A stretch of DNA of 64,000 nucleotides from Hysterium pulicare CBS 123377 (Eukaryota > Ascomycota > Dothideomycetes > Hysteriales > Hysteriaceae), in the NCBI GenBank assembly GCA_000467715.1, contig AJFK01000721.1, forward strand, positions 34,408-98,407. The letters run 5' to 3'. Made by a program: the position numbers and the translations under genes. The notes under the pieces were generated by a model. The model worked only from the letters and a program-made list of their open reading frames with translations. It was not told the origin of the DNA and made no database searches. This document shows, piece by piece, positions 6,744 through 63,829 of this stretch (positions are counted from its first letter, which is position 1; each line of letters begins with the position of its first letter).

Positions 6744-7679
6744 CTACCATTCAGTGCCCCAAACGCCGTCATACTCAGCAATATAACTAACAACCCTAAC
6801 AACATCACGCGGCTGAACCTCCACCCCGCCCCTCTCCCTCACAGCCTCAACCAACATCGCCCGCACGCTCTCCACCCGACCCTTCGTTATCTCAGATAGA
6901 GTCGCCAGTCCAGTAGCCAACGAGTTTGACCACGCAGTAGGTTTCACAATCGTTGGAATAAGCTGGTCTTGCTTGATATGCCAGTTCTTCTCGATCATTT
7001 GGACGCGGGTTTCGCGGCTGTAGTGTCGGATTGGGTTTGTGGGTGCGGAGTGGGCTGGGCGGCGGTTTTTGAATTTTCGATCCGCCAGGAAGGATTTGGC
7101 GTTCGAGATGGCTTGTTCTTCGGTATAAGTGATTGAGGATGGGAAGCATTCGGGCTGAGGAGCGGTATCGGGAACATTAGGCTCGTCGGGCATGGCATGG
7201 CTTTGTGTCGTCCCTGATTTTCCCCTCCGAATCCTTCCCAAAGCTATCTCAATATCTCGACTCGTAATCGCGATGATGTGTCCGTCTTCGTCTTGACGTC
7301 GTTCCTCCACCGCATTAACCATGAACTCCTTCGCCGTTCTCAAATCTCCTTTCGTCTCTCTCGACAGAAACGCCAACTCTTCCAATACTTGAAAGTCCCA
7401 CGAGCAAGGATTCGAGAGTCCGTACATGCCCTCTTGTCCAAGGATAGCGCTTCCCATCGTCCACCAAGAAGTCACGATCCAAGGCCGATAGGCTTGGGGG
7501 ATCGCGTCGACGAGGTCACAGGCCCAGTTTTGGCGGATTTCTTGCATGTAGGTTTCGCGTAGAGCCTGGGATTTGGGAGGGAGCCATGATGGTTTTTCAT
7601 ATAGGTACGCAGGCAAGCCGTCACCGAAGTCATAGTTTAGTGGTCTCTTTAGCCGCGTATGAGGGCCAAAGGGAAGCAT
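6744..7679 (-). CDS. NWG-family protein E, two tandem modules
   Basis: Single-exon frame of 311 residues with a proper ATG. I do not recognise a named domain. It contains two copies of the module found in the genes at 47.9, 57.0 and 58.8 kb. Copy 1 spans about residues 44-150: EIRQNW at 47-52, then RP, ELAFLS, FMVNAV..R and S-RDIEIAL. Copy 2 spans about 228-298: MIEKNW at 228-233, then TGLATLSEITKG, MLVEAVRER and RDVVRVV. The linker is Pro/Glu-rich. No signal peptide or membrane segment is visible, so it is probably intracellular. Unlike A, C and D it has no terminal mini-exon or helical tail. Function unknown; the duplication inside one protein supports a discrete fold. Confidence 0.75.
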   Translation of the reverse strand: MLPFGPHTRLKRPLNYDFGDGLPAYLYEKPSWLPPKSQALRETYMQEIRQNWACDLVDAIPQAYRPWIVTSWWTMGSAILGQEGMYGLSNPCSWDFQVLEELAFLSRETKGDLRTAKEFMVNAVEERRQDEDGHIIAITSRDIEIALGRIRRGKSGTTQSHAMPDEPNVPDTAPQPECFPSSITYTEEQAISNAKSFLADRKFKNRRPAHSAPTNPIRHYSRETRVQMIEKNWHIKQDQLIPTIVKPTAWSNSLATGLATLSEITKGRVESVRAMLVEAVRERGGVEVQPRDVVRVVSYIAEYDGVWGTEW

Positions 7680-47902: not shown

Positions 47903-49430
47903 ATGAGACAAGACACCACGGGTTTGCCACTCGCAGGGGACCAGCAGACAGGAGTCCCATATCCGGGAGCCTTGCCATCATTAAGCGGAGAAAAGTTGGC
48001 TTCGTTGCGCGATGATATGAGGGCGCGAGGATCCCCATATTGGACACGGTCAGTGTAAGTGCCCTCTCCAGCGCGACGCCAATCCACATATGAAACTATC
48101 TGACCGCTTGAGGGCCTAGGGCTTCTGATACAAACAATGTTCGTTCGTACGATACATCACTTCAGAGCGAACGGACGTATCATAGCGGATCTCCAACGCA
48201 GACATCACCACGCCGAGGTGGTATTGCTGATAATGCCCTCAACTTTCAGCAGCACAGAAATCTCGAACACCCTTCACCACACCTTCATAACGAGAGCACG
48301 CAGTACCCAGAGTCACGGTCCCTACGACCTCATCTCCAAACCACTCCACAACCGACCGTTCGTAATACCCCAAATGACGAATCGGGAATTCATGAGCCAC
48401 AATCCCATGAACAGTCACCCGAACTCACGTATTCTGCTTCTGACAGGTCGTCATTAAAAAAAGCTAAATCTAAGCAAAAAGGACGCGAGAACCTCGTGAA
48501 AGAAATCGAGAACAACTGGGGTCCTGGGGCCCTGAAAAATATCGTCCCACACGACATACGGCCTAGATTAAAACATGATCTTGGAAAGTCGTACGGTTCA
48601 CGATGGCCGTTGGTCGTCCTTCAACGGCTTCTACGGCTTTCAAGGTGCTCGGATGACTACGATTTAATACGAAAACAGTTGGAAGACTCTGTCAGTCGTA
48701 GAAGAAAATCCCCAAAGACAAAGCATAAACTCTGTATCACGCGTCAAGATTTAGATTGGGTTACAGCTGCAATCAATGAAGGTTGCGCTGTAAGCGTTGT
48801 AATTGATCGTTTAAGACCGGAAAACAGTGATTCGAATACTGCCTCGGCTCGCCATACGTCTCAACTTCGGAAGAGACCCACGAAAGTAGCACAACGACAT
48901 CATACACCTCTTTCACCCGCAAGGACGGTAGCGTCGCCCTTAGATGCCAGCATGCGAGGTGTTTCGGCACAAAACGCAATACCGGCAGACCCAGGAGTTT
49001 CAAGTGACGAGGAGCCACTGATAAGGGCTCATGCAAGACAAGGTCGTGGAAATCGTCAGAACGGTCTATACGCCGCAGGCCAGATTTCCGAATCAGCGAT
49101 CCAAAGCCCGGAGGGTAACGCGACTCCAGAAGCCCGACTTGCCATCAAGCCGGACCCAGAACTATCCATGAATGCTTATTTGACCCCACTGACTAACGCC
49201 ACCCGTCGAGCCCGCCAGCAACGGTCCAACTCCCCGGATTATATCGAGCAGGCGCTAATAGCACGGCGCGATGAGGCGACAAGGGAAAGGGAATTGCAAG
49301 AGTATCGAGTCAAAATGAATTCGTAAGGATACTCCACTTCGTTGATTGCTAATCGTTGAATGAAAACTGATCTTTTCGTTCCAGGAAGCCTGGAAAGAAG
49401 TACAACCCTGTTCCAATTGACGACGACTGA
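47903..49430 (+). CDS. NWG-family protein A
   Basis: Exons 47903-48054, 48120-49322 and 49385-49430 splice in phase to 466 residues. No methionine occurs in frame in exon 2 before the module, which supports exon 1 as the start. Residues 1-170 are polar and low-complexity. The NWG module spans about 177-285: EIENNWG at 179-185, then RPRL, LQRLLRLS, V-SRRR and ITRQDLDWVTAAINEG. A linker with SSDEE, GRGNRQ and AIKPDPELS leads to a helical segment (QALIARRDEATRERELQEYRVKM). A phase-2 intron precedes a 46-nt last exon that encodes YNPVPIDDD. Close architecture to NWG-C and NWG-D. No known domain, signal peptide or membrane segment; likely intracellular, possibly nuclear given KKAKSKQKGR. Confidence 0.78.
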
Positions 49431-50407
49431 ACCTACGAGCTGGAGAAACCACTGCAGTTTTGATGAACATGTGATTGGACGTCTGAATGAGAGATAAAGT
49501 TGGACCGTGGATCTTCAATACTCTAACGAATGGGATGGACGGCATTTCTGCGGATATTTGGAGTATAGCCAAGAGGACGAAGGTCTAACGGAGAAAGAGC
49601 TCTTGGCCCCTGAGGAGTTGATAGAGCGGCGTGTATTCGAAGTATGACCTAAAAAGGGGAAGTCAGAGGCGTGGGAGTACTTTCAGCATTCTTTCCTCTG
49701 GAGTGAATCTCAAGTCCTTTTGTATGTCAAGCAAATATTAACAACCATTTGAGAGTACACAGCGATACGTTACTGGGGTCGCTAACTACGTTATATTTTT
49801 GAGTTCTTTTGTGAGGTTGATCTTGTTAGAAGGAGACTCCAAGGCGGACCTGACAAATAGCGTTCTGGTGAATCTACTAAGGAGTAGCAGGAGGGTAGTT
49901 GATGACTTTTGTGGGCTTTTGAATCCCTGAGATTCTTACGCAGTGCTGAATTTCCCATTGATATGTAACATGCCCAAAATGGCTTGTGTAAACTTGTAAG
50001 CCATAGTTAGTCTATTAACGAGCTTCTGTTGGGACACCTCCAGTTTCACCTCCGCCATATATCTTGACTTAACTGCATCTTACTACATCCAGATCTTACC
50101 TCACCTCATATGTATCTACCTTTTTGACCTTCACCTTCGCTCAAAATCTTTCACTTATAATGATACCACTTCTATTCAATCTAATTCATCAACCTCATCC
50201 TATTCCTCATCGCTCTCTTCCTTACTTTAGGTGTCCGGAGTGGTTCGCCGTATTGATTGCTGCCCCGCGAACCTCACAAATTTCGCTGTCTACGGGTTCG
50301 AGTGAGTCCTTTCGATATACTCGAACGCCCAGAAGTGAGTCGAGCATCATGCAGTGCTGACCAAGATGGGATATGACTGACGCTGTCTTACAGGTTCAGA
50401 CCTAAAG
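49431..50407. other. Intergenic region
   Basis: 977 bp between NWG-A and the truncated copy NWG-B. Its right part carries splice-like signals of a 5' leader (a GTGAGT at 50302 and CTTACAG ending at 50393) comparable with leader introns before NWG-C and NWG-D. Confidence 0.4.
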
Positions 50408-50575
50408 ATGGCCGACATTTCCGATGGTGACCCAAAGACTTGGACGATGAAGAGAAAAGAAGGTTTCCTAGTCGAACTCGAGAAGCACTGGGGTGCCAAT
50501 CCAGTCGAAACCTACGTTCCCGAAAAGCATCGTCCTCGCCTCAAAATCACCGCCGATGTAAACACCGTGATCTAA
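50408..50575 (+). pseudogene. Truncated NWG-family copy B
   Basis: A 55-codon frame starting at an ATG 15 nt after a leader acceptor encodes the first part of the NWG module: LVELEKHWGANPVETYVPEKHRPRL. It stops at TAA before the L-x-x-L-x-x-LS half. The W-G-A-N start is closest to NWG-D (NWGAN). Nothing resembling the rest of the module is recognisable downstream, where the secreted-protein gene ends on the other strand. It is either a decayed duplicate or, less likely, a short expressed protein of the head region. Confidence 0.6.
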
Positions 50576-50838
50576 GTGGTACCTACGTGGTAGTTGCGGT
50601 GGGGAGCGTTGCCCAAAGACCCGTACAGCTGTTGTGGGGACCAGCCAAGGTGTCAACACAATTGTTGAGCAACGATACAACGGCTCCTTTCACAGCCAGC
50701 AACCTTAATACCAAGCCCAGCGCTCCTAGCGCTTCTAGATTGATGCCAAGATGTCATCTCGGCCCTTGCAAATGTCTGTCAACGTGCTCAACCATGACAA
50801 AAAACCCGCAGGCAGATAGGCCTCTCACATCCTCACTA

Positions 50839-53544
50839 CTAACCAATTAGCAGAGTATTCTCCGTGATGTTTGCATCGCGCGACCCAATCTGCTCCGCTA
50901 AGTCTGTGCATAGCGCCTGCAGTTCAATGTCCTCCCAGACGTCGGCACCCGCAAGTTCTGGCGCGAGTGCCATAGCCAACGCAGTAAGACCGTCGACAAT
51001 AAATTCGCAGACAAATTCATTGAATGCGGAGGTACCATGGCCGATCTCGTATGAGAGTTGGATGTTCATGTGGTTGGCGTATGGACCATTGCGGCGGTTG
51101 CCCAAGATGGGATCTGAATGCCATGTTAGAGATGGACAAACGAAGACCGGGGACGTGCAAACTCACTGACATGATCAGGCCCTGCACAAACCGTCGCCTT
51201 GTAATGACACTCCGGCGGCGGCGGCGGACTGCAATTGTCGCAAAGTGGCTCCGGAAGCGCGTATCTAGGGTTCAACCTCCGCTCCTCTCTAGTCATCAAA
51301 GCGCGCTCGACAATACCACGCTTCACGATACCCGTCCCGCACCCAGACGCAGTAGGATCTTCGGAATCCTCGTAGTCGACCTCCTTGCACGACTTGGAGA
51401 CAGCTTGCTGCCACGATGCGACCGCTGCGGCGATCATCTGATCCCGCTCCTGCGTGCTGTCGTAGTGGCTGTCCTGAATAGTAAACTTAATTGTCTCTTG
51501 AGTCGGCTCGTTGCCGACGACCGTCTCAACGTTGTCGAATTCTCCGGGCGTTTTTGAGTCGCATGTATTTAAGTTGTCCGGGCAGAGAGCCTTAAGCTTG
51601 TTAAAGAGGTCTAAGCGGAGATCGGCACCGCCATTCTTATTATTCTCATCGCCGATAGGGACGGAGTTGTTAGAGAGGAAGACAGTAGCGGTCGGGACGG
51701 CGGGAGTGGTGGGTGTACATCCGTTGACTGGAGTTGTTGCGCACGAGGGCGTGTCAGCGATGCCGCCGACGAGGGTGCATACGTAGCAATTGGTGGTATA
51801 GACCTGTGACTCGATAGTAATAGGGTTAGCTACACTACTCGTTGGCATTGCGGTGTATGAGCAGGACTGGGACTCATCGGTCGCGTCGGAGATCGTCAAC
51901 AACGGCAGAGTTGTAGAGCCGCAAACGCAACCTCGTGCATCGATACCTTGATCGGGATCCCCGTTCTGCAAAGAGCAAGATGGCATTGCTGGAGCTGGAG
52001 TTGTTGGGGGCGTCGTAGTTGGACTGGCAGTGGTACTGAACTGGCAAGCGCTGGCGTCGCGTTTCACTTTCTTCATGGGCCGAGCGGCGAAGTTCTTGTG
52101 CAGTGTCTGAATAGACGAGTCTACGTCGCCCATGAACTTTTCGAAGTCCGCGGTAGACTGAGGAATGAGGTCTCGAAATTCAAATAAAGGCGCTGTGCGG
52201 TTCAGTTTGAACATCTTCTCGACCCGAGTTCCAAGGCCACCGATGGATTCATCGTACTGTTTGTCGAAAGTCGTCAACAAATCTGGGCTTGGACTGCCTT
52301 TGTCGATACCCTGAATCCATTCCTTGATACTCAGGGTGATAGGAATGCCTTGTTTGGGAAATTTGCCGATATATTTGTATTGCAGACCAGATACAGTTGG
52401 ATTGCCTCCGAACTTGACACCAGGTACAGGGTTCTTGACCGTCCCAGTACAGTAGTCCTTGTCGATACTGTATGTTGTTAGCTAGGCAAGTGAGCTGTAA
52501 AGCCACCTCGCTTACGTACCTGACTTGAAAGTCTTTTTTCGTTAAGACTGTTTTGTAGCATGCGAGTGTGTTGAAGATATCGAAGAGCTCGTTGTCAGCA
52601 GGAAAGAATGACTTGACTGCGCTGTAAATCGTGACGAATTCCGTTCGTGGCATGAACGGAATCCACGACTTAGGACTCATCTCCTGAGTGTTTGGATCGT
52701 CCGGATCTACCGGCTTGTTCGCAGCCTTTGCGTAAGATAAGACCAGAGTACAGAACCCAAGCACTGCGTCATTGATCTTCCCAAAATCGACTTTTAGCGA
52801 GAGGTCCTGGAAATGATATTTGGTGACTAGATGAATGTTCTGGCCTCTAGAGATACCAGTGTCGCCATTGAGGATGTTCCTGCCTTTCGTTACGCCTTGT
52901 ACATTCTCTTTCATCAAGGAGTATAGCGCTTCTAGAGGCATCGATGAAGTGATTTGAGGAGCCCACGAAATCTGGTCTTTGTTCGTGTTTTCATTAAGGT
53001 TTCTGACGGTCCAAGGATCTGAGCATTGCTGGTAGTTCTCAATGGTAACCTGATTTGTCGGGGTTTCACTCCAAGGCGTCCAACTCGCCTGCAAACGTTA
53101 ATTGCGTCAAGGTTGGAGCCCATTCAGCGAAATACTTACCAAGTCGTCATGAGCTGCTTTGCCAGCGGCTGCAGCGCTCTCATCGCCGACTTTAATGTTC
53201 CTGCCATCCAAGACATACTCCGCGCTGAGTTTCCCCTGGCCTTGTTCGACAGAAGTGTCTACTGAAAGCACAAAGTTCGTTCCAGAACGGCCCTGAACCG
53301 TCTTGCGTTTTGCTAGAAAGGTATCTTCGAGGCTGCATTTATCGTTTGAAAATTGGATATGGAGAGTTTCAAACTCTGCTCCGATACCCGCGTTTCCAGA
53401 AGTAGTAGGTCCATCGTTGAGCTCGACCAGTGCAATCTCCTCATACGCTTCGTCACAACCAGTGGGAAGTGCGCGTGGAGTTATCGAAGGTAATACAGCT
53501 GCTTTTGCGGTAAGCACAAAAGAAAGAAAAAGTACGGAATGCAT
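50839..53544 (-). CDS. Large secreted protein with chitinase-associated-like C-terminal region
   Basis: Exons (minus) 53544-53140, 53088-52520, 52467-51167 and 51113-50839 give 849 residues. Residues 1-16 are a signal peptide (MHSVLFLSFVLTAKAA). The N-terminal half is unrecognised but globular. A Thr/Pro-rich linker (TTASPTTTPPTTPAPA) separates a C-terminal half with paired cysteines: GDPDQGI-ARGCVCG, TLPLL, SQSCSYTAMP, YVCTLVGG, LSNNSVPIGDENN, ALCP, and AAVASWQQAV ... SGCGTG. From memory this half resembles the region found after the catalytic domain of fungal subgroup C (LysM) chitinases. No GH18 catalytic motif is present. A KR site (VKRGIVERA) lies near the end. Role unknown; possibly a cell-wall or antagonism-related secreted factor. 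Confidence 0.72.
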
Positions 53545-54540
53545 GCTAGGTAGCTCTGCTCATTGAATAGCAAAAAGCTCTTACGGCTGGAGAAGAGAGA
53601 ATAGACAGGATTTAGTTTTTGATCAAACAAGCAGCGGAACATGCAGTATATATACGCCCTCCCAACGATGGTTAACCACATTTCCCAATTCCATGAGAGC
53701 GTTGATTAGGATTAACCACCGTGCCGCTCATGAGCCGTAGAAAGTTCCTGGAGGATGCTTGAGGGACTGCACACCAGTCTCGGTGCTCTTTTTTGGACCT
53801 GACCTATGTGGCACGAAACATCATCGAGTGTTTCAATATGCTCTCGCCAGAAGGCCACGTTGGAGGTACAGTTGTGAAGGCAGTGTTGGAATTTCAAGGG
53901 TGTTAGATTGAAACAACATTGGAGCCAGATAAGAGGCACAGAGGCACAGTTGTGAAGGCAGTTTTGGAATGTAAAGGGTGTTCTCTTCTTCAACATCGGA
54001 GCCAGATAAGAGGCACAGTTGTGAAGGCAGTGTTGGAATGTAAAGGGTGTTCTCTTCTTCAACATCGGAGCCAGATAAGAGGCACAGTTGTGAAGGCAGT
54101 GTTGGAATGTAAAGGGTGTTAGATTGAAACAACATTGGAGCCAGGTAAGAGGCACAGTTGTGAAGGCAGTTTTGGAATGTAAAGGGTGTTAGAATAAAAC
54201 AACATCGGAGCCAGATTAGAGGCACATTTGTGGAGGCAGTTCGCGCACACAGTTACAGGAACAGGTAAAAATGACGCTAGCTGAGGTGAGTTCTTGGCGT
54301 GGTCAGCCGAGCTGTTACCACCTATGTGCTTAGGAACGTGAGCACCTCGAGTCCCACCAGATCCATCGGATTCAGCCTTGCCTCCAACATCATCGAAAGG
54401 GACAAGTGTCAAGAAGAAAGCAGCAAAATTTGGCGTCGTTTGATTTTTCCATCAGCATCGACATCATCCTTGATTGCTATCAGTTACTCGCTGAACAACA
54501 CGATCAATAACAACCTTGACTAGAGACAAACTAGGTCACT
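53545..54540. other. Spacer carrying a minisatellite
   Basis: Between the secreted-protein gene (-) and the F-box gene (+). Mostly occupied by the 69-bp repeat array. Open frames across the array are a by-product of its multiple-of-three period. Confidence 0.6.
53867..54240. repeat. 69-bp tandem repeat, about 5.4 copies
   Basis: Units begin ACAGTTGTGAAGGCAG at 53867, 53946, 54015, 54084, 54153 and (as ACATTTGTGGAGGCAG) 54222. Spacing is 69 bp except the first (79 bp), where GAGGCACA is duplicated. Two versions of the middle alternate: TTAGATTGAAACAACAT and TTCTCTTCTTCAACAT. Confidence 0.92.
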
Positions 54541-55986
54541 ATGGCTCTCACGAACCTCCCACCCGAGCTTCTTGACATCATTGTCGAATACTCTCTACCA
54601 CAGAGCTTCGAGAACTTGGCAACGACTTGCAAGAGAATCTATGCGCGATGCACACCATTCATCAAGCGCCACAACGAGCTGCGCTCCCGCTTCCGAGATT
54701 TTATCTACTACGCTCACGCGCGCGATAGCCTGGTGGCCGCTTCCGACCTCATCGAACTCATCGCCGCTGACCACATCGTTGCGCGATACATTCGAATCGC
54801 AAACCTTGTAGAGGACAGCAAGTTCCTTCGCCATCTACGTGTCCGTAATGAGCCACCGAAGTCCGTCCCAAGCATTGAGGACGGAGGAGTCATTGTCCAA
54901 TTGTTTGCCAACTCTACGTATCTCCGGCGTGCCCAGCTAGACTGGAGGGAGTACTATTCTACGTTCGCAGAGGACGTCAGGGAGATGCGCTATTCGCAGC
55001 ACGGCAGTGCCTTTCTCCTGACGCTGCTCGGTGACACCAAGAACCTCACCATACCAAGTTCATGGAAGCCGAATGCCGCCACGAATCAGCTGCTCGATGT
55101 ACTTGTCAAGGAGGCTACGCAGTCCAGCTCTCAGTCTTCTGGTCTTCGGTCAGTCACAAGTTTCCTTGGATCATTATCGAGATCCGAGACTGAAAATTGG
55201 GACTTAAGTTGGGCGAGGCCCTTCCTCGCTCTACCGCATTTGAAGTCGTTTAGCGGTCCTGGCAGTTTAGCAGTCGGAGAAAACCCTAGAAGCCTCGCGT
55301 TTAGAGGTTCGCCTCATATCGCAGACACACTTGAAGCAGCTCATCTAGGTGGCTGTTGTATTGACGACGTAGGCATAACCGACTTCCTCAAGCACACACC
55401 GCGCTTGAAGACATTGAGGTACTCGCACAGCACACAGCATGACTATCTTCCTCCAGACTGGGATATCTGCAAGTTTATCAACGCAGTAGCGCGCGAAGCT
55501 GGAAGTCATCTTGTCGAACTTTCGGTAAAGATCCTTGAATTGCGCGGCTCTATCCTCCCCGGCAAGGCATCGACACGTAGTTTCCAGAAGCTAAAGAAGT
55601 TCGAGTTTCCTCTGGAACTTGCCACGTGTAACATCATTGCCGCGGGTGTCACAGGGAGCATTGCTACCTCGTTGCAGCGCTTCTTCAACGGCTCGCTGGA
55701 CCCGTTCGTACGCGACTTGATACCCACTTCAGTCACGCATCTGTCGTTGCAGTCCGAAGGAATGGGCCATCATAACAAATCTCTTAATGCCTTGTTCCGT
55801 CACTTTCGTGCGGTACGCAGATCTCAGCTGCCTAATCTCCAAGAGGTACTTATCGCCTGTAAACAGGAGGCGGATAACGCCTACAAGCAACAGTGCAACA
55901 AGATCGTTGCGGAGGGTGATAGAGAAGGTGTGGTTGTGCATTTGCAGGCGTATGAGTATTCTGGTGTATTCAACTGGGATGGGTAA
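54541..55986 (+). CDS. F-box protein
   Basis: Single-exon, 481 residues. The N terminus is an F-box: LTNLPPELLDIIVEYSLPQSFENLATTCKRIYARCTPF (residues 3-40). The rest is leucine-patterned without a clear repeat family (LPHLKSFSGPGSL, TPRLKTLRYS, VTHLSLQSEG), as in fungal F-box proteins with irregular LRR-like tails. F-box proteins recruit targets to an SCF ubiquitin ligase through Skp1. Target unknown. ATG is the first in frame, 20 bp after the last upstream stop. Confidence 0.85.
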   Translation: MALTNLPPELLDIIVEYSLPQSFENLATTCKRIYARCTPFIKRHNELRSRFRDFIYYAHARDSLVAASDLIELIAADHIVARYIRIANLVEDSKFLRHLRVRNEPPKSVPSIEDGGVIVQLFANSTYLRRAQLDWREYYSTFAEDVREMRYSQHGSAFLLTLLGDTKNLTIPSSWKPNAATNQLLDVLVKEATQSSSQSSGLRSVTSFLGSLSRSETENWDLSWARPFLALPHLKSFSGPGSLAVGENPRSLAFRGSPHIADTLEAAHLGGCCIDDVGITDFLKHTPRLKTLRYSHSTQHDYLPPDWDICKFINAVAREAGSHLVELSVKILELRGSILPGKASTRSFQKLKKFEFPLELATCNIIAAGVTGSIATSLQRFFNGSLDPFVRDLIPTSVTHLSLQSEGMGHHNKSLNALFRHFRAVRRSQLPNLQEVLIACKQEADNAYKQQCNKIVAEGDREGVVVHLQAYEYSGVFNWDG

Positions 55987-57031
55987 CCCTATGCTATTGG
56001 TCGGCCGATTTCTGTCTCAGAAGGAAGGAAGGCATTACAATCTTGCAAAAGTCTCGAGGCTCTGCTGGCATCACTTCTTGCAGCTATCGACCAGCTGCAT
56101 AGTGGCTGAGGTTGTAGTAGCAATTGCGAGCCTCCTCGTCGAGATGATAGTCTTTTACCAAAAGGCACGTATGGGATATAGATTCGCGGGCAGTGTAGTA
56201 TCGTGCTTTGAACTTCCCCTATCGGGCAAGTATGACTACTTGCTCCTACTTCCGCGCCCATCCTTCAGTGCAGTTTTCCCTCATTGAGTTTCTCACCATG
56301 GAGGCTGTAAGTCTTACACCGACCATCAGTCAAGACTGCCGTCTCGTGCGTCAAGCCCGGTCGCAATCACGTGATGATGCGGGAGATTGCTTCGAACCGC
56401 CTCTCTTGTCCGACCGCCTCCACGCCCCCGGCCACGCTTGGAATCATGCCTCTGATACTACGTACTGGCTAGGCTATGTTGGCACCCAGTGTTCTGCACA
56501 TCTGACCGTGAGGGTTGAATTATCTTTTCAGCCACCATTGGTGCATAGAAGACACTATCATGAGGATTGGGGAGTCGCAGCCTGAGCGAGAGAGGCTATC
56601 AAGTCTTTCACTTGACCAGATTTACCACCTTCACCTCCGGTACGTGGTTAATGTGACTCACTGAGCCTTCGAGCCCTCACCTTTATTCTATTTATACTTC
56701 GCCTTTCAGCCCCATCTTCTTCGGAGTTTTACTTCTACACCTTACTTCTTCTACTTCTTCTTCTTCTTCTACAATTACAGCTTGAAATCACACGCGAAAA
56801 CATTCTCTCAAAGAATGCGATTGAGCACTGAGCCCTGACAGCTTCGATCAGACCTCCTAAGAAATACTGTTATCGTAGAAGCACAAAAGGTGAGCTTCTT
56901 TGAGATTAGGGTTGAATTTGAAATCTTACTAAGTGTTTGTCATAGTGCGGCTGCCAGTTTCTATTCCTGTGATCTCATTGGCATCAGAGCCCACAGAGTC
57001 CGCCTCTGAGTCCGAGCATCCATATTCTACG
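55987..57031. other. Intergenic region and NWG-C leader
   Basis: 1 kb. Contains a (TTC)n-type run near 56741-56771 and a probable leader intron of NWG-C (GTGAGC at 56890 to CATAG at 56945). No separate gene recognised. Confidence 0.5.
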
Positions 57032-57942
57032 ATGTCCAGAAAGCAGCAGGGCCTGAAAGTGATTGAGAAGAATTGGGGACAAATGTGGCTCGAGAATTAC
57101 TTCAGGGAAGCCAACCAACCTCGCGTTGAGTATACAACAGAACACGACAGCCCGCTCGGCACAGCCGACAAGAACGGATACACTTTGCAGAAGGCCGTTT
57201 TGAAAGAGCTGAGAGGGCTTTCACAAGAAGAGCAGAACGCTCAGAAAGTCAGTAAAGGATTCGAGGAGGCCGTTGCCTACCGAAAGAAGAATACCAATAG
57301 CAAGGGCCTACGCGTGCAGAGCGGGGATGTGAAATTCGTGAGGCAGGTCTTCAAACGTGGAATGACCGTCAAACAATACCTTGAGAAACAAGGAGTTGTA
57401 CCATCATTTACGACGCCTCCTACTCGTTCTCCGATGGTTGACGATCGCGGCAATCTTGCAACGACACCTGCCGCCATTGGCGACAACACGACCGAAGCAC
57501 ATCAAGAGCTGACCACGACTGATTCAAACTTCGAATTCTTGCCTACCAAGGCAATTACGGCATCGAATATCACAGCGCAGAAGCTTTTCAGTGATCCAAT
57601 ACGTCCTGGAATGCCAACAGCTCCTCCCAGTCCCGAGCCGGTTGAACAGAAAATCAAGCAAGAGCCCGTAGAGTCTGTGACAACTTTTCGCCAACACTTC
57701 ATTCAGCCGCTCAAACATAAGTATGATGAAGAGCGTGTCCTGAGGGCAAAAGTTGCACACGCCAAAGCCATAACGAATGAGAAACTCTGCGAGGTTCTGT
57801 TAGCGGAAAGCATTGCCGCAAAGTCAGCCGCTCGAAACGCGTAAGTGCCACTCACCGTCATGGCTAGACTCATACAAAACTGACTTGACAACGTAGACCG
57901 GGAGGTTCGGAAAACCCGTGGGAGGTGGACGATGGAGATTAG
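57032..57942 (+). CDS. NWG-family protein C
   Basis: Exons 57032-57840 and 57897-57942 give 284 residues. The module is at the N terminus: VIEKNWG (residues 10-16), QPRV, LKELRGLS, FEEAVAYRKK and QSGDVKFVRQVFKRGMTVKQYL, to about residue 120. A polar linker with IKQEPVES leads to a helical C-terminal stretch (VLRAKVAHAKAITNEKLCEVLL). A phase-2 intron then precedes a 46-nt exon encoding PGGSENPWEVDDGD. The frame stays open upstream of this ATG to a leader acceptor at 56945, but without another ATG. Intracellular, function unknown. It shares all parts of its plan with NWG-D 0.8 kb downstream. Confidence 0.78.
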
Positions 57943-58785
57943 AGTGCAAACCCATTCAACGTCTCTAACAGAGAAAAGAATCGTATCGAACAAGGATGGT
58001 AAATGGTCACTTAAATATCTGATTACAATGGGGGCATGCTGGGTTCTGGCGTTTTGCATTTTGCTTTCACTTCGGAAATATGGTAGATCCGAACATCTGG
58101 GCTCTGGAAAGATGGTTGCTGAAATTTGGCGGATGCTTCCATTTCCTTTGATCTTCTCATTTCCCCAATCTCTTCCCCATTTCTCTTCCTCACATATCTT
58201 CCCCGTTCCTGACATTTCCAACTCAAGTAGCCGGGGAATAGCTAGAATGAGATAATACACAATACGCTTCTGCGATAAAATATATTTAACGGCTCAGTCT
58301 TCTCATCTAGGCTCTACGCTTTTCTGATGCCACAAACAGCGTCGGTAGAGATTTGGAAGGAAGGTTGAAACACGAAGGGACGAGTAGATAACAATGTAAG
58401 CTCACCTAGAACCTGTCACCTCTCCATTCTCCACCCATCTCAAATCGATCAACCGGTGGATCTCACAGTCATGCACCCTGCCTCCTCACTACATTCATTA
58501 CTTCTTTCAGTTCTCTGACTTGACTTTTTTGCCTTATTCTTTCGAAAGCCACAAGCTCACTATCTACTCAAACGCCTTCACTTCATTTCTTCTCTATTAG
58601 TCGGACCGTCATCATCTATTATCGCCGGGGCTCTACAGCTTATCACCGTTACATTCGCCACTATCTACGGCCTCATCACCCAAAACACTGCTTCACTCAA
58701 TTGTGAGTCTTTCACTCCTAAACAGAGGGTCTTAAGTAAGCTAAAGGATACTTTTTATGCTCACTGTCGACTTCCAGCAATTGGT
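57943..58785. other. Intergenic region and NWG-D leader
   Basis: Pyrimidine-rich toward its right end. A probable leader intron runs from GTGAGT at 58703 to CTTCCAG ending at 58777, eight bases before the NWG-D ATG. Confidence 0.5.
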
Positions 58786-59656
58786 ATGAAGAAGAACCTG
58801 GTTGCTAAGATCGAGCGCAACTGGGGCGCTAACGGAGTCCTTAAATGTGTTCACAAGCGGCTTCGACCTGGAACCACGAAACGCATCAAGAGATATCCGA
58901 GCGGGAAACAAATACCCTTCAAAGACGACCCGACCACGTGGAGAGTGGACTTATTGGAAAGCTTGCTGGAGCTTTCGCGCCTGACTCAAGATACCACGCA
59001 GATCAAAGCCGACTTTCTTGTTTTCGTCAAGGTGTGCAATAGAACAGAGTTATTAGACCAAGATGTTGATTTTGTTCGGGACGCCTTTCTCAAAGGATGC
59101 CGCACCATTGACCATCTTACGGAGAGATATGGACTGCGAAGTCGTAAACCGTCTGTTGGGCGAACTGATGAGTGGAGTGACGACGATGACGCCAGCGAGG
59201 GATCGGAATCAGGGGAACGCAGGACTGACGCTTTAGTAGGTGGACGTGGAAACCGTCAGTCAAATACAAGGGGTTCTCCGAACATGGGGGAACCAACTGT
59301 GGAGCAAACGGTGTCAACCACTACGAAGCCAGGAATCGACCCGAACCCTCAGAGTAACCACATTGGAAAGCCGATTGGGAAGAACACAGAGGTGAAGGTT
59401 GGGATTAAAGAAGAGTCCAGGGATAAAGTAACCAGCAAGAAAAGCAGCGTGGCTATGCTTGAACGCGAGCTGAAGGCCGCAAAAGCAGAAGCAGCAGCGC
59501 TGAAGGCTGAAGCGGCCGTGGCAAAGCTTGAATGCCAGTTGGCAAAGATGAAGGAGACAAAATCAAGGTATGAGTGACTCCAAGGCGGATTGAGATTGAT
59601 ACTAACTAGATGCGTCCAGCTTGGGATCTCAGAATTCTCCACTTGCCATAGATTGA
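58786..59656 (+). CDS. NWG-family protein D
   Basis: Exons 58786-59567 and 59620-59656 give 272 residues. Module at residues 8-115: KIERNWGAN, RLRPGT, LLESLLELS, FLVFVKV, DQDVDFVRDAFLKGCRTIDHL. The linker has EWSDDDDASEGSESGE, GGRGNRQ (shared with NWG-A) and GIKEES. A clear coiled coil with heptad-like A/K/E pattern (MLERELKAAKAEAAALKAEAAVAKLECQLAKMKET) follows. A phase-2 intron (GTATGA ... ACTAAC ... CCAG) separates a 37-nt last exon encoding LGSQNSPLAID. The coiled coil suggests oligomerisation. No known domain. NWG-B looks like a truncated relative of this copy. Confidence 0.8.
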
Positions 59657-62312: not shown

Positions 62313-63302
62313 TCAAAGACAAGCCCACTTGAGACTACTATACTCATCCATCGGAATCTTGAAATATTCTTCATCAGCTTCAGTAGAAGTACGCGATCTC
62401 CACTCAGGTTGATCAACCTGCCATCGCGCCGACAACTTCCGATTCCTATTATCAATAATGATAATACGTTGGACCTTCGAAATACGTTCAAGCTTCCGGT
62501 AAAATTTCGATCTGTAGTGCTCGGGCATGAGGGCCAATTCCATGAGCGGTTTAGAGCCGTAGGCGAATTCGAAGAAGAACTTGTCGGCGCTGGGAACTTT
62601 TTTGAATATGGCGGTGATGGAGCACTCCAAGACCATTAATGTGTCGTCTAAGACTTGGGTGTAGACCATTTCGGACAAGAAGAGCCCGAGTCCAAAAAAT
62701 AGTCCTTGGTGGAAGTAGAGGTCATTTACATTTGCGTAGAAGATGCATTGCTTGATGCGCTGCAGAATCCTGGGGTTGGGCTTCATGTGACTTCGAGTCA
62801 TCATAACCGTCCTGTTCTGGCTATAGTTGGTCATGGGAGTGAGCTCGACGACCAGCTTCGCCTTCCGCACGATCGCATCCATGAATTCGTCGTATAGTTG
62901 GTGATTGACTAGAAGTAGACTAGAAGGATATTTTTTAGATAGCCGGTAACGGACTTTAAAGCTTAAGAGAACGCCGAAGTCCTCTGCGAGACGGGGTTCG
63001 ACCAAGTCACGTGTCGTGAAATCCTCCAGGCAGTTTTCCAGTATCGTGTCTCGTATCTCGCGGGGAAGCCTCAACAATCTAGATCTCATCATGAGATTAT
63101 GGGCGTTCAGATCGGAGGTCTTAGGAGTGGTTGCGCTCGTACACTTGGCGATCCTTCGAGGAGCTCTGCGGGCGGATTTACGTTTTGCGTTGATTTTGCG
63201 TTTCGTCTGCGGATTGGTTTGAGAGAGGTTCAGCGATGCAGAGACGTCTCTACGTCTAGTTTGCGATGCCAAACGCAGTGAACGCCTTGGTGCTGGAGAC
63301 AT
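62313..63302 (-). CDS. F-box/2EXR-like protein
   Basis: Single-exon, 329 residues. A basic N terminus (PRRSLRLASQTRRR ... KRKINAKRKSARRAPRRIAK) looks nuclear-targeting. The core begins MRSRLLRLPREIRDTILENCL (from residue 72), the opening typical of the large ascomycete F-box-like/2EXR family. It continues with SLLLVNHQLYDEFMDAIVRKAKLVVEL and a helical C-terminal part. Members are expanded in ascomycetes and mostly uncharacterised; the opening may bind Skp1. No close functional assignment. Confidence 0.78.
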   Translation of the reverse strand: MSPAPRRSLRLASQTRRRDVSASLNLSQTNPQTKRKINAKRKSARRAPRRIAKCTSATTPKTSDLNAHNLMMRSRLLRLPREIRDTILENCLEDFTTRDLVEPRLAEDFGVLLSFKVRYRLSKKYPSSLLLVNHQLYDEFMDAIVRKAKLVVELTPMTNYSQNRTVMMTRSHMKPNPRILQRIKQCIFYANVNDLYFHQGLFFGLGLFLSEMVYTQVLDDTLMVLECSITAIFKKVPSADKFFFEFAYGSKPLMELALMPEHYRSKFYRKLERISKVQRIIIIDNRNRKLSARWQVDQPEWRSRTSTEADEEYFKIPMDEYSSLKWACL

Positions 63303-63829
63303 AGTGAACAGGTAATTGTGAGAAGTGGGTAAATTGAGGTAAGAGGTTTTCGAATCCGCAAGGGAATGTACAACTTAAGCAGCTTCGTTTTGTGATCAAA
63401 ATGGATGTGAAGTGATAGAAGTGAGGAGGAGTGTTAGAAGGATGGGGCTGGAATTTGATTTTGAACGGGTGGGGAGTCATGTTCGACTCATTGACTCTTT
63501 TGTCGTCAACGGTGACGATAGCGTGTAAACCAGAACCAAAGAAACTAAATTAACAAGAACTTAACGCAAAAAATTAAAGTAACACTACTACATTATTTAA
63601 TAAAATTAACTATAAATAAGAGCATTAAATATAATTACTGCTTACGCGTGGTTGAGCTTAACTAAACTCTTTTTCAACGGGTGGGGAGTAGAACCATGGA
63701 TGAGGTGATGCAATGGCGGTAATCCGTGGCCCGTGCAGACACGACTTCGACGCCAAAGCACGTGCAGCCACCCTTACGCTCCTCTCCAGATCATCATCAC
63801 TTCTTTGAACGCATTAGAAACCTCATAGA
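63303..63829. other. Intergenic region with AT-rich island
   Basis: Between the 2EXR-like gene (-) and a possible gene at the right edge. Contains an AT-rich block flanked by direct repeats (listed separately). Confidence 0.5.
63464..63689. repeat. AT-rich block flanked by 14-bp direct repeats
   Basis: AACGGGTGGGGAGT occurs at 63464-63477 and again at 63676-63689. Within the 198 bp between them, bases 63541-63640 contain only 19 G or C by count, far below neighbouring DNA. It could be a small insertion with a duplicated target or a decayed element. No terminal inverted repeat was seen. Confidence 0.5.

Follow-up and report, generated by a model that had tools for sequence, protein, structure and literature searches.

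In this study, we analysed a 64,000-nucleotide stretch of Hysterium pulicare CBS 123377 DNA (the window; bases 34408-98407 of contig C483, reaching that contig's end) and found six copies of one module of 85-115 amino acids (aa) in five genes, namely A, B, C, the two-copy gene D and the truncated copy E. They belong to a protein family that is real and divergent and has no Pfam entry. An original prediction had named six copies in five loci and the limits 47903..59656; all copies were present at the positions it named, and our spliced models run from the start of A at the first of these limits to the stop of C at the second. Fungal relatives were searched for within the window's own assembly only (37,200,777 bases; 596 contigs, each labelled C with its number), where nine further genes (F, G, K, L, I, H1, H2, M and J) brought the family to at least 14 genes and at least 17 modules, truncated E included. 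These counts are lower bounds, because the search scored the best candidates only, exons were not joined, and E was missed by the consensus search.

The gene models of the window are predictions, with splice sites read from the sequence. The predicted introns of gene A have the splice sites GTAAGT/CCTAG and GTAAGG/TTCCAG, and the predicted intron of gene C has GTATGA, a branch-like TACTAAC and GTCCAG. Across the five intact copies of the window, the columns I, N, W, P, L, L, S, V and D are invariant. The module of A, B and C is followed by a low-complexity linker and a charged helical-looking tail with an I-K-x-[ED] site before it, then a phase-2 intron and a short end that contains N-P or N-S-P as well as acidic residues. 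Because A, B and C are alike at their ends, homology outside the module is also supported. The I-K-x-[ED] sites, which we take to resemble SUMO sites, had a count per protein not clearly above that of shuffled sequences. The proteins A, B, C and D show no hydrophobic N-terminus of the kind that the signal peptide of a secreted effector would bring: the top hydropathy over 11 residues within the first 40, a simple measure applied to these four only, was 0.54, -0.20, 0.38 and 0.02, respectively.

The leave-one-gene-out test used 13 profiles, each searched against 179,205 bases translated in six frames. All 13 left-out genes were recovered, with whole-protein expectation values (E-values) from 1e-29 to 5.3e-10, while segments without the module scored 0.2 or worse, the best non-member being at 0.2. 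This indicates that the shared module which had been proposed goes beyond chance. The E-values hold for this small set and not for the genome, because the stretches were picked through earlier matches. In the same searches, the out-of-frame first piece of H1 scored 1.7e-5 to 5e-4, and the first part of K was weak alone (independent E-value 0.0094), whereas its second part was strong (8.9e-12). The truncated copy E, which was never part of any training set, scored 0.0003-0.014; it matches profile positions 2-31 of 106 and is cut after approximately 30. When it was built from nothing but the five intact copies of the window, a profile still recovered all nine outside genes (E-values 1e-18 to 6e-4).

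The DNA pattern for E-x-N-W-G occurred at 24 places in the genome, compared with 11 for the reversed pattern, and three of the 24 were family members, all inside the window. In the consensus search, 17 of 18 places were known members (16 modules, with K in two parts). The remaining place, on C104 (consensus E-value 0.48), was dropped, as its best score with the profile was 3.4 bits. Two other candidates were also dropped: that on C425 (E-value 0.43) was absent among the matches listed in the profile search, and that on C543 (E-value 2.2) had an E-value of 4.6 there.

The outside genes differ in condition and layout (Table 1). G appears whole, because its in-frame TAG sits within a predicted intron, while H1 shifts frame within the R-P segment and is described as disrupted. 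The N-terminal part of K is connected through a predicted intron (donor GTAAGT, acceptor CTACAG). The zinc finger of M was matched by Pfam zf_CCCH_4 with an E-value of 2.4e-5, which is below the family cut-off. A stretch at C512:38814-39095, in a 761 aa open frame, shares 60-65% identity with the N-terminal domain of K, and the consensus search listed no module on C512. For K, G and C512, an N-terminal domain that looks ubiquitin-like by eye was considered and rejected for want of support (best PDB profile E-value 0.28, topoisomerase IV; sole Pfam match DUF7194, E-value 0.069).

Table 1. Family members, their modules and other features of the window and its assembly. Positions without a contig name are those of the window. 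pLDDT, predicted local distance difference test.
Feature	Location	Strand	Structure	Support or remark
Gene A, 466 aa	47903..49430	+	exons 47903-48054, 48120-49322, 49385-49430	predicted; open model
Module A	48484..48786	+		leave-one-out E-value 9.7e-16; model pLDDT 83.3
E, truncated copy	50408..50575	+	short open frame; helix 1 and R-P segment at 50450-50572, then stop
Gene B, 284 aa	57032..57942	+	exons 57032-57840, 57897-57942	predicted; open model
Module B	57038..57364	+		leave-one-out E-value 5.3e-10
Gene C, 272 aa	58786..59656	+	exons 58786-59567, 59620-59656	predicted; open model
Module C	58786..59100	+		leave-one-out E-value 4.5e-10
Gene D, 311 aa	6744..7679	-	single open frame, two modules	leave-one-out E-value 1e-29
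Module D1	7218..7562	-		leave-one-out independent E-value 8.6e-17; groups with F1
Module D2	6765..7019	-		leave-one-out independent E-value 3.7e-10; model pLDDT 91.7
F	contig C480		485 aa open frame, two modules
G	contig C480		in-frame TAG inside predicted intron	donor GTATGA, acceptor CCATAG
K	contig C481		single module	insertion of ~80 aa between two matched parts
L	contig C481			first detected by profile on contig taken for K
I, H1, H2	contig C485
M	contig C476, L047:124-1755	+	two modules flanking CCCH zinc finger
J	contig C156
HET-domain match	C483:9418-9858			contig also bears family members
HET-domain match	C485:86902-87387			contig also bears family members
Three adjoining open frames	51129-53559	-	resemble one intron-bearing gene	start judged hydrophobic by eye; Pfam gave no credible match
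Tandem array	53863-54241		unit ~69 bases, 4.3 copies, 91% matches	between minus-strand gene and F-box-like gene
F-box-like frame, 483 aa	54538-55986	+	weak F-box-like start	Pfam E-value 0.0064, below cut-off
Second weak F-box-like frame	62316-63374	-		E-value 0.0034

The original prediction could match the module to no named domain and had suggested Pfam searches and structure models as checks. The scans of family open frames gave no credible Pfam match for the module or the family, no enzyme domain, and no AAA or AAA_lid family; D and one open frame of H2 do contain isolated P-loop-like strings, where Pfam gives no AAA domain. At loose thresholds, 11 Pfam names appeared, each on one of 15 modules (best E-value 0.0049, MTHFR_C), and these were judged to be chance. 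The alignment behind these 15 modules was built without G, without E and without the first part of K; K was covered by another Pfam scan, and neither E, the module of G nor additional open frames of J and H2 matched any Pfam family. Among PDB sequences, the 5-row profile had no match, and the 15-row profile had seven weak ones, the best (E-value 0.05) being a coiled-coil match. The scans of viral contigs, which reach close relatives only, found no relative of D or A. The literature search returned no paper naming an NWG motif, domain or module, and none on a standalone AAA lid as fungal paralogs of unknown function.

The lack of a named domain therefore held for Pfam, but the predicted fold does have neighbours, namely the C-terminal helical domains of AAA+ proteins. 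The two modelled modules, A and D2, share one predicted fold. It begins with helix 1 (I-E-x-N-W-G), a loop of variable length with R-P, helix 2 (W...L..L..LS) and a short T-x-G hinge, and continues with helix 3, which closes on an R found in 16 of 16 copies; a variable loop then leads to helix 4 (D-V..V). The hinge separates helices 2 and 3 in both models (in D2, helices 32-45 and 49-63). The Foldseek neighbours were dominated by AAA+ C-terminal helical domains, although the matches were weak and none was significant. According to passages of PMC1847821, AAA+ C-domains consist of two helix-strand-helix units with a hinge and a short parallel beta-bridge between them. DSSP assigned neither a strand nor a bridge to the two models, a result about models only, and hhalign against 80 FtsH sequences gave a probability of ~0.1 and did not place the module on the lid, the FtsH profile being narrow (effective number of sequences 2.7). 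Because the helix order and hinge are present but the bridge and the FtsH profile link are not, we speak of a lid-like predicted fold and not of an AAA+ lid. From the models, we believe that the module probably has a lid-like fold, and a structural kinship of the family to AAA+ lids is plausible.

On this basis, we tentatively propose as our best reading that the proteins may be intracellular, otherwise flexible adaptors in which a lid-like four-helix domain, free of any ATPase, serves as a docking surface. The module would be a self-contained domain, standing alone unlike a lid, that docks a partner protein; the tail would bring copies together by oligomerisation, and the docking surfaces would have diverged after old duplications. 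It is rather unlikely that the module is instead an unrelated new helical bundle, convergent in its likeness to AAA+ lids and with another role, such as RNA or DNA binding via basic loops. Such a bundle would agree with the lack of any significant structural or profile match and with the basic modules A, B, C and H2 (net charge +8 or +9), but one fold dominates the structural neighbour lists. Moreover, F1 and F2 have net charges of +4 and +6, the remaining 10 of 16 modules lie between -5 and +1, and this spread makes a general, shared nucleic-acid surface unlikely.

The module could also be a relative of the histone fold, in which helices 2 to 4 would pair with a second copy in a handshake to give chromatin- or transcription-linked dimerisers, but we consider this improbable. 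The T-x-G ... A-V ... D-V pattern is histone-like by eye, two nucleosome entries stood among the 50 Foldseek matches listed for D2, a viral histone headed the viral structure matches (best E-value 0.53), and M carries a CCCH zinc finger. Passages of PMC1847821 also propose AAA+ C-domains as the source of the histone fold by domain swapping, which would give the two a shared ancestry. However, both models are broken at the hinge between helices 2 and 3, as C-domains are, whereas passages of the same paper describe the histone helix as continuous; the histone matches had a root-mean-square deviation of ~12 Å, and the neutral or acidic charge of most modules likewise speaks against histone-like proteins.

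The family had been described as strongly diverged, duplicating and evolving fast. The divergence is strong, with module identities from 14% to 35%, but no recent duplicate was found, since the most similar pair (H1/H2) is 35% identical. In the module tree, D1 grouped with F1 (bootstrap 94), D2 grouped with F2 (78), A and B split from the rest (82), and the remaining nodes were at 60 or less. The D1/F1 and D2/F2 groupings indicate that the two-module form predates the split of D and F; the closest relative of D is F (E-value 4.9e-25, 32% identity). Judging from these sequences, the divergence of the modules is old or fast, not recent.

The clustering that had been claimed is supported: five of the six member contigs are numbered 476, 480, 481, 483 and 485, which was equalled by 2 of 2,000,000 random six-number draws. 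Most of the family would lie in one region if contig numbers follow chromosome order, an assumption that may not hold. The proposal of an undescribed system reaches further than the evidence, as nothing shows a system of linked partner genes. Many HET-domain matches are typical of filamentous ascomycetes. In this genome there are at least 150, spread from C4 to C596, including matches on the member contigs C483 and C485 and on C486 to C488. The reading that the family comprises diversified intracellular proteins for self/non-self recognition within one region, like other lineage-specific clusters, would suit the contig numbers, these HET matches and the clustering of Neurospora lineage-specific genes with HET genes described in parts of PMC10684091, but it has little chance of being right, as HET matches occur assembly-wide, chromosome order may differ from contig numbering, and same-contig modules are barely more alike (mean identity 26%, 18 pairs) than different-contig ones (23%, 102 pairs).

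We give very little credence to a bolder form of the adaptor reading, in which a lid-like domain split from an AAA+ motor in a fungal lineage and multiplied regionally, so that fast-diverging adaptors, some of which carry an N-terminal domain that looks ubiquitin-like (G, K) or else a zinc finger (M), would slot into AAA+ machines or act as competitors of the lids. If the adaptor reading itself is right, an expanded gene family of fungi would have been built on the lid domain of AAA+ motors, also a rare stand-alone part of DNA polymerase subunits, and genes left blank by the domain library would gain a name and a testable role. If the family alone holds, it would still make a clean new entry for domain libraries, complete with the limits of the module, the structures of the genes and a predicted fold.

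Compared with known systems, both models of the module show the helix order and hinge of the AAA+ lids of proteasome Rpt6, p97, FtsH, PAN and RuvBL, with weak structural matches (69-77 residues aligned at 2.6-4.2 Å among the VIA matches listed). It differs from them in that no ATPase core was found, the models lack the beta-bridge, the FtsH sequence profile gives no link, and the loop between helices 1 and 2 is variable, reaching ~80 aa in K. The N-terminal domains of DNA polymerase B subunits have a docking role. The stand-alone C-domain-like examples (alpha p68, epsilon B and archaeal DP1) are like the module in shape alone (2keb); there is no sequence match, and the Pfam scans of the family contained no phosphoesterase part or subunit family. 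According to passages of PMC4187176, these N-terminal domains and archaeal DP1 resemble AAA+ C-domains and are not ATPases themselves. The histone fold, whose proposed kinship with AAA+ C-domains comes from the passages of PMC1847821 cited above, has a similar helix pattern, but it is an obligate dimer whose long central helix is continuous where both monomer models of the module have a hinge.
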